The notes under the pieces were generated by a model. It saw only the letters and a program-made list of their open reading frames with translations. It searched no databases and was not told the DNA's origin. A DNA stretch of 64,000 nucleotides from Ectobacillus panaciterrae DSM 19096. GTDB lineage: Bacteria; Bacillota; Bacilli; Bacillales; Bacillaceae_G. Positions 1,309 to 62,967 of the stretch are shown in pieces (the first letter of the stretch is position 1; the number at the start of each line of letters is the position of its first letter). Location: positions 237,936 through 301,935 of the forward strand of contig NZ_KE387246.1 of assembly GCF_000430785.1 (NCBI RefSeq). Reading direction: 5' to 3'. Position numbers and translations under genes: made by a program.

Positions 1309-1550
1309 CGCAAAAAGACCGTTTCATCCTTTAGAAAAAAGGACGAAACGGTCATCGTTCCGCGGTACCACCTTCATTGATATGATTTTCATATCCGCTT
1401 ATCGCCTGTAACGAAGGCAAACGCTTAAGGTTTTTACTTAAGACTCGGGGATAGGTTCAATAGCTTCTTTGCGAGGAATCTCTCAGCCTGCGAATTCCAC
1501 TCTCTTGCGCAAGAAGGAGTATTTACTAATTCCCTTCTACGTTTTTTCTT
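1309..1550 (-). promoter_or_regulatory. T-box riboswitch, proline type
   Basis: Read on the minus strand, the T-box sequence GGTGGTACCGCGG lies at about 1372-1360. It is followed by a GC-rich hairpin (1353-1317) and a T-run, which is the terminator of the on/off switch. Upstream, stem I carries GAA-CCT-A; the CCT at 1455-1453 is a proline codon in the specifier position, which fits proB. Uncharged tRNA-Pro is expected to allow read-through. Confidence 0.93.
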
Positions 1551-9549: not shown

Positions 9550-9723
9550 ACTATATACAAGTGAATAAAAAACCGTTGATAGTGGGGAGAGATTATCTGG
9601 CGACGTGCAGAAGCGGTCAAAGCTTTGTAGTGGTTCATGCAAGGGAGAAGAAGCATATCATATTCCCTTGTGGTTGCACATAGCACATGGACATGTCGAA
9701 ATTATCATTCACTCATATATAGC
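9550..9723 (+). mobile_element. MITE-like repeat, copy 1
   Basis: First copy of the family of TA-flanked repeats. Left end CTATATACAAGTGAAT and right end ATTCACTCATATATAG are near-perfect inverted repeats. The central core (AGAAGCGGTCAAA) and a weakened hairpin are present. It lies between pelG and the hydrolase gene. Confidence 0.85.
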
Positions 9724-22282: not shown

Positions 22283-22472
22283 ATGTTATGAAGATGAGGG
22301 ATAAAAAAACGTCTTTTTATAGTGGGAGAGATCATCCGGCGATGTGCAGAAGCGGTCAAACCTTTGTAGTGGTTCATGCAAGGGTAAACGAGAGAGAAGA
22401 AGCATACCATACTCCCTTTTCGTTGCACATAGCACATGGACATGTCGAAATTATCATTCACTCATATATAGG
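22283..22472 (+). mobile_element. MITE-like repeat, copy 2
   Basis: Full core and right end (ATTCACTCATATATAG, ending at 22471). The left terminal repeat is degenerate (GATAAAAAAACG). It ends 12 bases before the mgtC-type start, so transcription and translation signals of that gene abut the element. Confidence 0.8.
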
Positions 22473-22483
22473 TGGTGAAGAAT

Positions 22484-23185
22484 ATGGTGTGGCAAGATAT
22501 GGTGATTCGTTTATGCATAGCTATATTTGCAGGAGCATTTATTGGAACAGAACGTCAATGGCGCCATCGGATGGCTGGTTTAAGAACTAATGCTCTTGTT
22601 TCATTAGGTGCGTGTTTATTTGTCTTATTGTCAGTCATGGTAGTAAAAGAATCTAGTCCTACACGTATTGCTGCTCAGGTTGTTAGTGGAATCGGCTTTT
22701 TAGGCGGTGGAGTAATTATTCGAGAGGGGTTTAGTATTCATGGATTAAATACAGCCGCTACCTTATGGTGTGCAGCCGCAGTAGGGACCCTTGTAGGATC
22801 AGGATTTCTTACAGCGGCAATTTTAGGCTCTTTTGGAGTTTTGTTAGCTAATATCTTACTTCGTCCAGTAGCATTATTCATGAACAAAAAATCAACAGGT
22901 CAAATGCCAGGTCATATGAACTATGTATTATCTGCAACTTGTTTAGATAAAGATGAATCACATATTCGAGCTTTATTAATGCATATGGTAAATACAGAAG
23001 GGATTGATTTAAAGGAGTTGTATAGTGAAGATATTGAATACGGTAAAAAAGTAACAGTACGAGCGTCGTTGCATTGTGATGCAACAAAAGCTGTTCTCAT
23101 CGAAAAACTAGTAAGCCAACTTAGCTTAGAAGCTGGTATAACAGCCATTGGATGGAAATCTCTTCCTGAACAAGAAGCTGAGTAA
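22484..23185 (+). CDS. MgtC/SapB-family membrane protein
   Basis: 233 aa. The N-terminal half has four to five hydrophobic segments with the family signature (GAFIGTERQWRHRMAGLRTN, GIGFLGGGVIIREG, TAATLWCAAAVG). The C-terminal soluble part (about 145-233) is ACT-like. Family members act in Mg2+ limitation or Mg/acid tolerance and can modulate F-ATPase; the exact role here is open. I chose the ATG at 22484 with GGTGGTG upstream, which starts right at the end of repeat copy 2. Confidence 0.88.
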   Translation: MVWQDMVIRLCIAIFAGAFIGTERQWRHRMAGLRTNALVSLGACLFVLLSVMVVKESSPTRIAAQVVSGIGFLGGGVIIREGFSIHGLNTAATLWCAAAVGTLVGSGFLTAAILGSFGVLLANILLRPVALFMNKKSTGQMPGHMNYVLSATCLDKDESHIRALLMHMVNTEGIDLKELYSEDIEYGKKVTVRASLHCDATKAVLIEKLVSQLSLEAGITAIGWKSLPEQEAE

Positions 23186-23207
23186 TGCTTGCGCAAACAA
23201 CATCATT

Positions 23208-23259
23208 TCGGATAATAAGTGGTGCAGTTTGAGAGATGCAGCGTGAAACGTTAAAGAAA
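23208..23259. repeat. Left flank of repeat copy 3, homologous to 37688-37738
   Basis: About 52 bases (GAGAGATGCAGC..AAAGAAAC) match 37687-37738 without gaps, with about nine differences. Right flank GTCAGTTATATATA also matches. This is an older dispersed repeat into which the MITE-like element inserted. Confidence 0.7.
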
Positions 23260-23260
23260 C

Positions 23261-23445
23261 TATATATAACTGAATAAAAAAATTGTCTTTTTATAGTGGG
23301 GCGAGAGCATCCGGCGGCGTGGAGAAGCGGTCAAACCCTTGTAGTGGCCCATGCAAGGGTAAACCATAGAGAGGAAGTAAGTGCCAATGCCGTTTTGTTC
23401 GAAATAGCAAATGAAAACGTCGAAATTATAAATCATTTATACATA
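23261..23445 (+). mobile_element. MITE-like repeat, copy 3, with TA target duplication
   Basis: The left end TATATATAACTGAAT and right end ATCATTTATACATA are bounded by TA. Comparison with the unoccupied sequence at 37739-37740 gives the exact insertion. The core hairpin is ACCCTTG/CAAGGGT. Confidence 0.85.
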
Positions 23446-23472
23446 GTCAGTTATATATAGGAATGAAAAAAG

Positions 23473-29602: not shown

Positions 29603-29697
29603 TATATACAAGTGAATAAAAAACCGTTTATAGTGGGGAGAGGTCATCTGGCGACGTGCAGAAGCGGTCAAACCTTTGGTTCATGCAAAGGTAAAAT
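29603..29697 (+). mobile_element. MITE-like repeat, copy 4, left half
   Basis: Left end TATATACAAGTGAAT, core and hairpin ACCTTTG/CAAAGGT are intact; homology then stops. The matching right half lies at 30583-30655, beyond the minus-strand gene. Confidence 0.8.
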
Positions 29698-29727
29698 TGT
29701 GAGAAATACGAAACAAATGCATCATTA

Positions 29728-30366
29728 TTATACGTGTTTGGCTGCTGTTTTTCTTGCTGATAGATCGAAAAGCCAAATTATTCCCCAAATCATCAAGGTA
29801 ATGGCTGCAGGTAAAATAAAGTGTCCGCCTGCATGTATGACTAACAAGACAAGCCATACATGACTAAGAAGAAAATGGATCGTACGCATGAACTTATTGC
29901 GAATCCGTTTAATAAACCAACCGTACATAGCGAGAGTTAACAGGATTATAAAAGCGGCAATTCCTGTGAGTGTAGAAGGATTATTAAAATCTTTGATGAT
30001 ATAGTATGTCCCATGTGCAACGACAAGGATTAATGCAGCCCAACCTACATAGGTATGAACTTTGTACAAGAGCTTGCCCATTTTCTTGATCAAATTTGAC
30101 GAGGATTTCATTTTTCTCTTAAGGTAAAACCATGAATAGCTGATAGCTCCGCATATAATAGCAAACGTTCCTAATTGTTTAAATGTCCCGCCTAATCCTC
30201 CTTTTCCTTCTTTTTCACCTGAAGGAGGGCCAGGATGGTCACCGCCAGTAGGAGGAGGACCATGATGACCACCGCTTGGCGTAGAATAAAAAGAATATAG
30301 AACAAGCAATAACCCAATAACAGTTACTATAATGGCAGGTATAAAAACACGGCGATTTTGTTTCAT
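29728..30366 (-). CDS. Cytochrome b561/ferric-reductase-like membrane protein
   Basis: 212 aa. An N-terminal membrane segment, a Gly/Pro/His-rich linker (GGHHGPPPTGGDHPGPP) and four further hydrophobic segments are visible. Paired histidines lie in the helices (KVHTYVGW, VVAHGTYY, TIHFLLSHVW, VIHAGGHF), as in bis-heme b proteins. It may pass electrons across the membrane or to metal ions. AGGAG precedes the ATG at 30366. It is enclosed by the two halves of one repeat element. Confidence 0.75.
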   Translation of the reverse strand: MKQNRRVFIPAIIVTVIGLLLVLYSFYSTPSGGHHGPPPTGGDHPGPPSGEKEGKGGLGGTFKQLGTFAIICGAISYSWFYLKRKMKSSSNLIKKMGKLLYKVHTYVGWAALILVVAHGTYYIIKDFNNPSTLTGIAAFIILLTLAMYGWFIKRIRNKFMRTIHFLLSHVWLVLLVIHAGGHFILPAAITLMIWGIIWLFDLSARKTAAKHV

Positions 30367-30582
30367 CACACACTCCTATTACTGATAATGTTGTTACAGT
30401 GAATATTACTAATTGTTTCTTAAGAATTCCTTAAAAAGTAATAAAACATGCTCGTTTTAATATTGGCTTTTTTCGCAAAGAGTATTGCCAGTAGATGAAT
30501 TGGGCATATGCATGATTTCAGGCAACGTTGTAATCTAGGCGGGAAGGAAATGGGAGTTGAAGAACTACTTCATTTTGTTTAT

Positions 30583-30655
30583 AGAAGCATAAAATACTCC
30601 CTTTTGCTTGCACATAGCACATGGACATGTCGAAACTATCATTCACTCATATATA
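30583..30655 (+). mobile_element. MITE-like repeat, copy 4, right half
   Basis: From AGAAGCATAAAATACTCCC to ATTCACTCATATATA; matches the right part of copies 1, 2 and 7. Confidence 0.8.
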
Positions 30656-30774
30656 GTTGCGCTATGTGTTTGGTTAAGTCAAAATGCAGCTCACACATAA
30701 AGACTGCCCTTGCTTTTTTTCAAAACTTCAATATAATAAACAATATCTATAAAATTCGACAACATAAAAGTACT

Positions 30775-31022
30775 GATAAGGACATGATTTATTTTTTACG
30801 ATTTTCAGAGAGGGAAGCCTTAGGCTGTGAGCTTCCTAATACGGGAAAATAGTTTACCACCTTTGAACTGCAGCAATGAACGAATATCTAGTAATCGCTT
30901 GCCGGCAACAACCGTTATTTGAAACTTGAGCAATTGGAGAAAGGTATCTATTTTTCAATTGGAACAAGGGTGGAACCGCGAATAAAACACTCGTCCCTTT
31001 TTTAGGGGGACGAGTGTTTTTT
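30775..31022 (+). promoter_or_regulatory. T-box riboswitch upstream of the amino-acid permease
   Basis: The T-box GGTGGAACCGCG lies at about 30969-30980, followed by a terminator hairpin with ACTCGTCCC and GGGACGAGT and a long T-run. Stem I has AGAGAGGGAAGCC and GGCTGTGAGC distal loops. The specifier region reads TTTGAACTGCAGC; CTG (Leu) or TGC (Cys) are both possible, so the amino acid is not settled. Confidence 0.88.
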
Positions 31023-32490: not shown

Positions 32491-32670
32491 TATATAAAAT
32501 TGAATAAAAAAATCGTCTTTTTATAGTGGGGCGAGAGCATCCGGCGACGTGCAGAAGCGGTCAAACCCTTGGTCCATGCAAGGGTAAACCAGAGGGAGGA
32601 AGTAAGTGCCAATGCCGTTTTGTTTGAAATAGCAAATGAAAATGGCGAAATTATAAATCATTTATATATA
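32491..32670 (+). mobile_element. MITE-like repeat, copy 5
   Basis: Left end TATATAAAATTGAAT, right end ATCATTTATATATA, hairpin ACCCTTG/CAAGGGT with the short loop. It belongs to the subtype with GCCAATGCCGTTTTG in the right half. It ends 20 bases from the fabZ stop. Confidence 0.85.
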
Positions 32671-33131: not shown

Positions 33132-33316
33132 TATATACAAGTGAATAAAAAAACCATCTTTTTACAGTGGGGCGAGAGCATCCGGCGACGTGCGGAAGCG
33201 GTCAAACCCTTGTAGTGGTCCATGCAAGGGTAAACCATAGATAGGAAGAAAGCGCCAATGCCGTTTTGCTGTACACAGCACATGTAAATGTCGAAATTAT
33301 AATTTACCCATATATA
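33132..33316 (+). mobile_element. MITE-like repeat, copy 6
   Basis: Left end TATATACAAGTGAAT, right end TTTACCCATATATA, hairpin ACCCTTG/CAAGGGT with the long loop. It lies between fabH and fabZ. Confidence 0.87.
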
Positions 33317-37544: not shown

Positions 37545-37640
37545 ATACAAGTATATTTAATTTAATAAAATTCATAATTCAAGTTTTCCAAATTTTAAAC
37601 AACTAAATATAACTGACTTATAGATTCAGCATACAGTTGA

Positions 37641-37745
37641 AGTTTGGATAGTAAATGTGTGAAATTGGATAGTAAATGGTCCAAGTTGGATAGTAAACGG
37701 TGCAAGTTGAGAGATGCAGCATGAAATGTTGAAGAAACTAGTCAG
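37641..37745. repeat. Tandem 21-22-bp repeats followed by the dispersed host repeat
   Basis: Three units of the type AGTTGGATAGTAAANGGTNCA (37641-37704), then GAGAGATGCAGC..GAAGAAAC-TA-GTCAG, which matches both flanks of repeat copy 3. The TA at 37739-37740 is the unoccupied target. Confidence 0.75.
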
Positions 37746-37771
37746 TTATATATAAATAGGAATCCTAACTA

Positions 37772-43776: not shown

Positions 43777-43799
43777 TCGTTAATAAGGTCATTTTATAT

Positions 43800-43970
43800 A
43801 CAAGTAAATAAAAAAACCGTTTATAGTGGAGAGAGATCATGCGGCGATGTGCAGAAGCGGTCAAACCTTTGGTTCATGCAAGGGTAAACCAGAGAGAAGA
43901 AGTATACCATGCTCCCTTTTGGTTGCACATCGCACATGGACATGTCGAAATTATAATTTGCTCATATATA
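43800..43970 (+). mobile_element. MITE-like repeat, copy 7
   Basis: Left end TATATACAAGTAAAT, right end TTTGCTCATATATA, hairpin ACCTTTG/CAAGGGT with the short loop. Inserted between ansA and aspA, 60 bases before the aspA start. Confidence 0.87.
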
Positions 43971-49887: not shown

Positions 49888-50372
49888 TAGATATGAGTGA
49901 ATGATAAATTCGGCATGTCCATGTGCGATGTGCAACCAAAAGGGAGTATGGTATGCTTCTTCTCTCTGGTTTACCCTTGCATGAACCAAAGGTTTGACCA
50001 CTTCTGCACGTCTTTTGATCTCTCCCCACTATAAAAACAAACATGACTTCTCAGTCACATCCCCCGCATGAAAAGGGGGTTAGTAACAACTAAACCTTAC
50101 TATACTGATAAGTAATGACGGACAGCCAAGTACGGGCATTTACTGGAAGCCTGTGTTTAACATCTTAGAAGACTATTTTGATGCCAATGCGCAACGTATT
50201 AAAAACGCGCCAGGGTGCAAGACAGATGTAGCGGATGCGGAGTGGATTGCCAAGCTGCTTCGATATGGACTCATTGAAAAATGAGATCTTTCTCCTATTC
50301 TTAGGTCCCTTAGATAGAGCATTACATAAAGTTCTTTTCACAGAAAAGACGTTTTTTTATTCACTTGTATAT
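49888..50372 (-). mobile_element. MITE-like repeat, copy 8, interrupted
   Basis: Minus orientation. 49888-50034 holds one end (TAGATATGAGTGAAT), the core and hairpin. Homology resumes at about 50344 (AAGACGTTTTTTTATTCACT) and ends with TTGTATATA. About 310 bases between carry an IS110-family transposase fragment. Confidence 0.75.
50114..50284 (+). pseudogene. IS110-family transposase fragment
   Basis: The frame STGIYWKPVFNILEDYF..NAQRIKNAPGCKTDVADAEW..LLRYGLIEK-stop matches the conserved DEDD-nuclease part of IS110 transposases. Both ends of the gene are missing. Confidence 0.8.
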
Positions 50373-50544
50373 ATATAAATGATTTATAATTTCGACATAG
50401 GACCTGCTATACAGAACAAAAGACAAGCCTGCACTCGCTTCCTCTCTTACCCTTGTATGGGGCAGGAAAAGGATTTGACCGCTTCTATGCTCCGCCGGAT
50501 GCTCTTTCCCCACTATCAACGGTTTTTTATTCAGTTGTATATAG
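50367..50544 (-). mobile_element. MITE-like repeat, copy 9
   Basis: Minus orientation, from TATATAAATGATTTATAATT to TTATTCAGTTGTATATAG. It is adjacent to copy 8, sharing the TATA junction. The hairpin is partly degenerate. Confidence 0.8.
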
Positions 50545-54637: not shown

Positions 54638-54794
54638 TATATACAAGTGAATAAAAAAACGTTGATAGTGGTGAGAGATCAAAAGACGTGCAGAAGCGGT
54701 CAAACCTTTGGTTCCAAGGGTAAACCAGAGAGAAGAAGCATGCAATGCTCCTTTTTGGTTGCACATAGCACATGGTATAATTCACTTATATATA
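54638..54794 (+). mobile_element. MITE-like repeat, copy 10
   Basis: Short copy: TATATACAAGTGAAT at left, ATTCACTTATATATA at right. Small deletions fall in the core and in the loop (CCTTTGGTTCCAAGGG). Confidence 0.83.
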
Positions 54795-59246: not shown

Positions 59247-59457
59247 CTATATAAATGCAACTAAAAAAATCGACATAAAAACATTTCTTTTAGGGGGGAG
59301 AGAGCATACGACTAAGCATAGAAGCGGTCAAACCCTTTTCGTGGCCATGCAGGGGTAAGCCATAGAGAGGGAGCGAGTGCAGTTTCCCTTTTGTTCTACG
59401 TGGCAAACGATAGATATGTTGGAATAACACAAAGTGGACTTATATATAATGTGAGAG
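59247..59457 (+). mobile_element. MITE-like repeat, copy 11, diverged
   Basis: TATATAAATGCAACTAAAAA at left and GGACTTATATATAA at right. The core AGAAGCGGTCAAACCC and a shortened stem (ACCCTT/AGGGGT) are still clear. It is the most diverged copy. Confidence 0.7.
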
Positions 59458-61712: not shown

Positions 61713-61890
61713 TATATACAACTGAATAAAAAACCATCTTTTTTAGTGGGGAGAGATCATCCGGCGACGTGTGGAAGCGGTCAAACCCTTGGTTCATGCA
61801 AGGGTAAACCATAGATAGGAAGAAAGCGCTAATGCCGTTTTGCTGTACCCAGCACATTGAAATGTCGAAATCATAAATCATTTATATATA
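61713..61890 (+). mobile_element. MITE-like repeat, copy 12
   Basis: Left end TATATACAACTGAAT, right end ATCATTTATATATA, hairpin ACCCTTG/CAAGGGT with the short loop. It is the same subtype as copies 5 and 6 (GCTAATGCCGTTTTGCTG). Confidence 0.87.
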
Positions 61891-62795: not shown

Positions 62796-62967
62796 TGACT
62801 TCCGACATATCTATCGTTTGCCGCATAGAACAAAAGGGAAACTGCGCTCGCTCCCTCTCTCTGGTTTACCTTTGCATGAACCACTACAAAGGTTTGACCG
62901 CTTCTGCACGTCGCCGGATGATCTCTCCTCACTATCAAAAGACGGTTTTTTTATTCACCTGTATATA
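62796..62967 (-). mobile_element. MITE-like repeat, copy 13
   Basis: Minus orientation; the right end in the picture is TTATTCACCTGTATATA. The hairpin is ACCTTTG/CAAAGGT (compensated pair) with the long loop. The other end is degenerate. It stops one base before the stop codon of the hydrolase gene. Confidence 0.82.

Follow-up and report, generated by a model that had tools for sequence, protein, structure and literature searches.

A miniature element flanked by a duplicated TA within the inverted repeat of a second miniature element in Ectobacillus panaciterrae

Introduction

According to the available text of PMC2170065, IS630 and ISY100 insert at TA and duplicate it, and a preference of an IS630-associated transposon for the TA in CTAG is given by the title of Tenzen and Ohtsubo 1991, cited there. 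RUP (Repeat Unit of Pneumococcus) is a repeat of ~107 bp with 110 copies in one pneumococcal genome, and mobilization in trans by IS630-Spn1 has been proposed for it (PMC3049150, in the portion at hand). In the same portion, the insertion of RUP in or near IS elements, once proposed, is described as unsupported.

Here we examine a short element, copy 3 of a MITE family that we call A, which has an unoccupied counterpart of its target in the same window (the whole 64,000-nucleotide stretch of Ectobacillus panaciterrae DNA that was analyzed). Sequence alone is enough here to define both the ends of a MITE family and its target rule, and 13 more such copies are present in the genome. To the preliminary description of this pair, the analysis adds the identity of the target, which is a MITE of a second family (B), further confirmed sites and mosaic ends. 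The mechanism of family A is a known one (IS630/Tc1-mariner, textbook), and the nesting seen here is ordinary, though very clean; the genome is unusually crowded.

Results

An occupied and an empty site in one window

Copy 3, a profile hit to model positions 1-184 on the + strand, extends over 23261-23445 when both target TAs (23261-23262 and 23444-23445) are counted. An ungapped comparison of the left flank, 23208-23260, with 37686-37738 gave 9 differences in 53 bases, in agreement with the gap-free match with about nine differences originally reported, while an offset of one or two bases gave 37-42 differences. The runner-up for this flank in the window was at 37665 on the + strand (31/53 matching, versus 44/53 at 37686), itself a tandem unit of the same repeat as 37686-37738, and the best match on the - strand was 28/53. 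Given these scores at the next best places, the left-flank match is not a chance one. On the right, where a match to 37741-37754 had been described, all 16 bases are equal between 23444-23459 and 37739-37754, and the right-hand flank, TAGTCAGTTATATATA, is the same in the occupied and the empty site. The empty site has one TA, at 37739-37740, reading C-TA-G at 37738-37741, and the occupied site has two, C-TA at 23260-23262 and TA-G at 23444-23446. Thus, the single TA opposite the two that surround copy 3 is confirmed to the base, and in the alignment of the 23.2 and 37.7 kb stretches, which had been suggested as a check, homology runs across the junction.

Rather than a unique locus, copy 3 has as its target a terminal inverted repeat, that of a MITE of a second family, B. 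Family B elements are ~150 bp long with the ends TATATATAACTGAC and GTCAGTTATATATA, and the target TA lies within CTAG, 14 bases in from the family B end. The uninterrupted element at 37604-37754 (+ strand; B profile positions 2-145 at 37610-37753) has flanking TAs of its own, at 37604-37605 and 37753-37754, and the unoccupied CTAG in its inverted repeat is read directly at 37738-37741 (+ strand). The element split by copy 3 consists of a left remnant at 23203-23262 (+ strand; B profile 73-132, E 1.4e-12) and a right tail at 23444-23460 (+ strand), the latter made up of the duplicated TA and GTCAGTTATATATAG, the B terminal inverted repeat. The matching flank belongs to a dispersed repeat with 42 genome matches at E<=1, short pieces counted. 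In the 1.47 Mb examined, the family B profile gave 26 hits, among which a single copy is in some cases represented by two parts.

Since copy 3 lies in an inverted repeat that belongs to another MITE, the 23.2 and 37.7 kb sites are paralogous, not orthologous. Orthologous empty sites were sought for two loci in three congeners, and no match spanned an insertion: the first locus gave a 347-base match within a ketoacyl synthase III gene and a 33-base match, both in the congener G002, and the matches for the second were 28 to 177 bases long. The flank identity of 83% (44/53) would also fit a segmental duplication after which precise excision removed 185 bases at 37.7 kb. Homology ends at the family B borders, however, and the copy 3 junction is unbroken in five further B copies. 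The uninterrupted B is therefore most likely the older state, and we regard duplication with excision as barely credible.

Size, number and placement of family A copies

Family A elements are 157-200 bp long (36 aligned copies), and no ORF of 80 aa overlaps copy 3; short and free of a transposase, the family has the character of a MITE. Copies up to 98% identical to copy 3 occur elsewhere in the genome, in a search in which 40 of 406 candidates were scored and the match count is thus a lower bound, and the median nearest-neighbor identity is 96% (74 full copies, substitutions only). End types were assigned to these 74 full copies by a simple string rule: 63 have A1 ends on both sides (TATATACAAGTGAAT and ATTCACTCATATATA, imperfect inverted repeats), six have A2 ends on both sides, three combine an A1 left with an A2 right end, and two have other left ends.

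The profile gave 147 hits in 1.47 Mb, 107 of them full length and 105 with TA on both sides, a density biased upward as the stretches were partly picked for holding hits. On contigs C1-C3, 38 hits were found in 742 kb, 14 of them in the window (14 in 64 kb, versus 24 in 678 kb in the other examined parts of these contigs). The numbers extrapolated per genome are ~280 from C1-C3, ~190 without the window and 540 from the biased whole sample, suggesting an abundance of roughly 200-500 copies. Hits lying mostly inside ORFs of at least 100 aa made up 8 of 107 in a first sample, including 2 of the 14 in the window, although ORFs of this length cover 74% of the DNA.

Besides copy 3, the profile placed a full-length copy at 9552-9721, a copy with an altered left end at 22301-22470, directly before an MgtC-type ORF (22472-23185), a copy split in two (29603-29704, left; 30584-30655, right) and copies at 32491-32670, 33132-33316, 43795-43970 and 61713-61890, all on the + strand. 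On the - strand are a copy at 50370-50543, one without its left end (49889-50037) and one with an incomplete right end (62796-62967). Profile and alignment together identified two more on the + strand, one shortened internally (54638-54794) and one with A2 ends (59248-59447).

Between the halves of the split copy (29603-29704/30584-30655) lie ~880 bp holding a 213-aa ORF (29728-30369, - strand), for which the Pfam match was sub-threshold only (DUF4271); either a gene was inserted, or two half copies flank a gene. We also noted a T-box leader at 30764-31001 (+ strand), ~110 bases past the right half and ahead of an amino acid permease gene, and a second one at 1336-1548 (- strand). Elsewhere in the genome, A copies were seen within or joined to other A copies (L071 3379-3562, L049 2574-2754, L051 3741-3920, L046 9395-9744 and L050 17561-17926), some of which have terminal TA bases in common, and at CTAG in another dispersed repeat, GTCCAGCTCCACCGGCTAGGCGCTGCC (L055 16559-16743 and L180 16227-16410).

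The TA target across the family

For each of the 105 full-length A copies bounded by TA at either end, the flanks were joined around one TA and searched in the 1.47 Mb. A relative of the joined flanks was found for 21 copies and was clean across the junction for 14, although one of these pairs (L050 17745) has just 14 matched columns right of the TA. In 12 of the 14 clean cases, a single TA is present in one or more of the empty relatives. Along with the window pair, these cases bear out the proposed insertion at TA with duplication of the TA. The two exceptions have TG (8/8 relatives) and CA (1/1). In two of the 12, TA is present in a minority of the empty relatives (1/11 and 29/105), the others having mostly CA. 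Empty relatives that lack TA could be accounted for if the true recipient had differed from them by a point change. For copy 3, seven empty-site relatives were found in the 1.47 Mb, the one at 37688 included. Six of them align cleanly over the junction, each with TA at the target (CTAG in five, TTAG in one). A smaller sample of 41 stretches, superseded by that of 1.47 Mb, had given seven clean pairs from 74 copies, six of them with TA.

Family A strongly prefers CTAG: 31 of the 105 copies lie in this context, as compared with 1.56% of all 97,524 TA sites of the DNA examined (p 1e-30, binomial). The neighboring bases are symmetric, with C at -1 in 62 copies, G at +1 in 66, A at -3 in 64 and T at +3 in 53 (n=105).

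A shared insertion point in family B

Four B elements, including the one that holds copy 3, have an A copy joined at the identical point. This would be expected if another A-holding B had passed copy 3 to its present B element, by homologous recombination or gene conversion and with no transposition at this site, and two further observations point the same way. The C72 locus and the window copy have the local variant GTTAAAGAAAC in common, and A copies are mosaics of one another, as an informative site is incompatible less often with its near neighbors (0.34) than with all other sites (0.45; 0 of 5000 permutations as low, 36 copies). The four A copies at the B point nevertheless differ in kind, being of type A1 in the window and at C72, of a third end type at C128 and A2-like at C152, which fits separate insertions into a preferred CTAG. 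In addition, of the four, the window copy alone shows a complete B tail beyond the A copy. At C152 the contig ends there; at C128 the joined A copy is itself truncated; and at C72 unrelated DNA lies beyond the A copy, which would require that the B tail was deleted afterwards or had already been lost. Arrival of copy 3 by recombination is thus unlikely, and insertion by transposition is the reading that we prefer.

Links to IS630-type elements

Contig C23 of this genome carries an IS630-family fragment, with a DDE_3 hit, whose left end is identical, 25/25, to the last 25 bases of B (TATATATAACTGACTAGTTTCTTCA, read inward). IS21-like ends, considered for the 21-base repeats of B, were dropped as the ends matched the IS630-type fragment. 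For family A, the A1 left end matches an IS630-type element of the congener G003 at 16/17 positions, and the A1 right end matches the fragment on the genome's own contig C73 at 25/29, with an equal score for G003. Each of these was the best of eight IS ends compared, and none of 2000 shuffles was as good. The A2 left end has a weak IS630-type likeness (11 of 1000 shuffles as good), and the A2 right end scored highest against the C73 fragment. With the IS630-fragment end of B and the IS630-like ends of copy 3, one IS630-type MITE is nested in another. The ends of the congener elements resemble those of the MITEs as well: G003 is like A1, G002 like the third type (C128) and, more weakly, A2, and G001 like B.

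The proteins of C73, C29 and G002 match NF033545 (the IS630 transposase model) and/or DDE_3 (PF13358). The search of the draft assembly (189 contigs, from which repeats may be missing) revealed three DDE_3 fragments but no intact IS630 transposase, and an N-terminal 137-aa piece used as query returned its own locus and two weak pieces. A helper transposase encoded in the same genome is usual for a MITE, though not a requirement. The three congeners have one IS630-type match per genome (G002 L146, G003 L147 and G001 L148), with no stop in the matched stretch in G002, one in G003 and two in G001. The paired ends span ~1.15 kb at L146 and ~1.18 kb at L147; at L148 one end was recognized. The G002 transposase (L146 968-2010) is in two overlapping frames at a run of A, and both halves match the IS630 model; this frame split resembles programmed frameshifting. 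The plain reading is that family A arose in a burst specific to this lineage, with IS630-type transposases acting in trans that have since decayed or are absent from the draft assembly.

One core, several ends and a third repeat family

Family A has one core between different ends, and this core resembles an intergenic repeat family, C, which begins with a terminator-like hairpin. Family C loci (L062 2572-2706, L070 12124-12245, 2-79 of the window and others) start with CTCAGCACGGG..CCCGTGCTGAG and a run of T, after which comes the core like that of family A. There are at least 41 family C matches in the genome and two short weak hits in 19 relatives (39 of 92 genome candidates scored). For the comparison with A, a profile was made from 15 C sequences with the A-containing row left out. 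It reached A copies over positions 2-63 with a best E of 7.6e-6. In the 1.47 Mb it had 60 hits at E<=0.001, of which 26 coincide with strong A copies. Searching in the opposite direction, with 12 A copies of the window, gave a weaker result, plain C loci reaching E 0.004 at best. We also noted a hybrid at L046 10809-10930, with a family A left part and a family C right part.

A core common to copies with different ends could also belong to a family of structured or regulatory RNA genes, for which the TA neighbors would be incidental, and copy 3 with its flanks does fold better than shuffles (z -3.3). The outer stem of this fold, however, pairs the A left end with the B tail. For the consensus of 36 diverse copies the value is -1.4 kcal/mol, with 6 pairs, 0 of them with a compensatory change (other strand -0.1). 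In an Rfam search of the window the two T-boxes alone, both outside the A copies, reached the gathering score, and two A copies gave E 1.5 or worse, far under the gathering scores. An RNA gene family is accordingly very improbable, and this reading was rejected, as the copies have almost no fold in common.

Tentatively, and with less than even weight, a ~120-base core with a minimum of two and perhaps three kinds of IS630 end, together with hybrids that bear one end of each kind, may have spread by end swapping, serially parasitizing different IS630 transposases within a single lineage and outliving all of them, and may derive from the terminator-bearing family C. If true, the change of helpers by a passenger DNA would have left a natural record that can be read here, in a host whose three congeners show one IS630-type match each, stop-free in one only.

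Distribution

With copy 3 as query, nothing was found at E<=0.001 in 59 other related genomes, three of them congeneric, at most 13 candidates being scored per genome. A 19-base word from the core had one match in genome contigs, in a Bacteroidales MAG, and a 15-base core word matched 70 viral contigs. The family A profile gave no better than E 0.005 on these 71 loci, which we therefore judged to be chance matches. There was no plasmid match. All of these collections may omit records of this genome or of very near ones. In the literature searched, no account of the family was recognized, which is a weak negative.

Discussion

Copy 3 is very probably a non-autonomous MITE of the IS630/Tc1-mariner type that was mobilized in trans and landed at a TA, within CTAG, of a family B inverted repeat, family B itself being of IS630 type. 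A transposase acting in trans, which we infer to have been of the IS630 type, would have excised copy 3 and pasted it at the TA of the CTAG in the family B terminal inverted repeat, presumably in a cut-and-paste mode, and filling in of the 2-base stagger would have doubled the TA. Uninterrupted B copies, such as that at 37604-37754, would then correspond to the state before insertion. Counting against this course of events, the draft assembly yielded no intact IS630 transposase, the three other B elements with an A copy at the same point show no B tail on the far side, 2 of the 14 clean pairs have no TA in any empty relative, and the matched transposase stretches of the G001 and G003 elements contain stop codons.

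Family A resembles IS630 and ISY100 in its TA target and TA duplication, and it resembles the IS630-associated transposon in its preference for CTAG, as far as these are described in the available text of PMC2170065. IS630 and ISY100 encode their own transposase, whereas families A and B encode none. The IS630-type elements of the congeners (G002 L146, G003 L147 and G001 L148) likewise have ends like those of the MITEs, but carry transposase genes. RUP, in the portion of PMC3049150 at hand, is similar to family A as a short repeat with about a hundred copies and IS630-like terminal inverted repeats. It differs in size and number (~107 bp and 110 copies, as compared with 157-200 bp, several end types and an extrapolated number of roughly 200-500 copies for family A). 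It also differs in that a preference for insertion in IS elements is unsupported there, whereas the nesting of family A in another MITE is directly seen. Likened by description, and within that portion of the source, RUP appears to be the nearest known kind to family A in build and in presumed mobilization.
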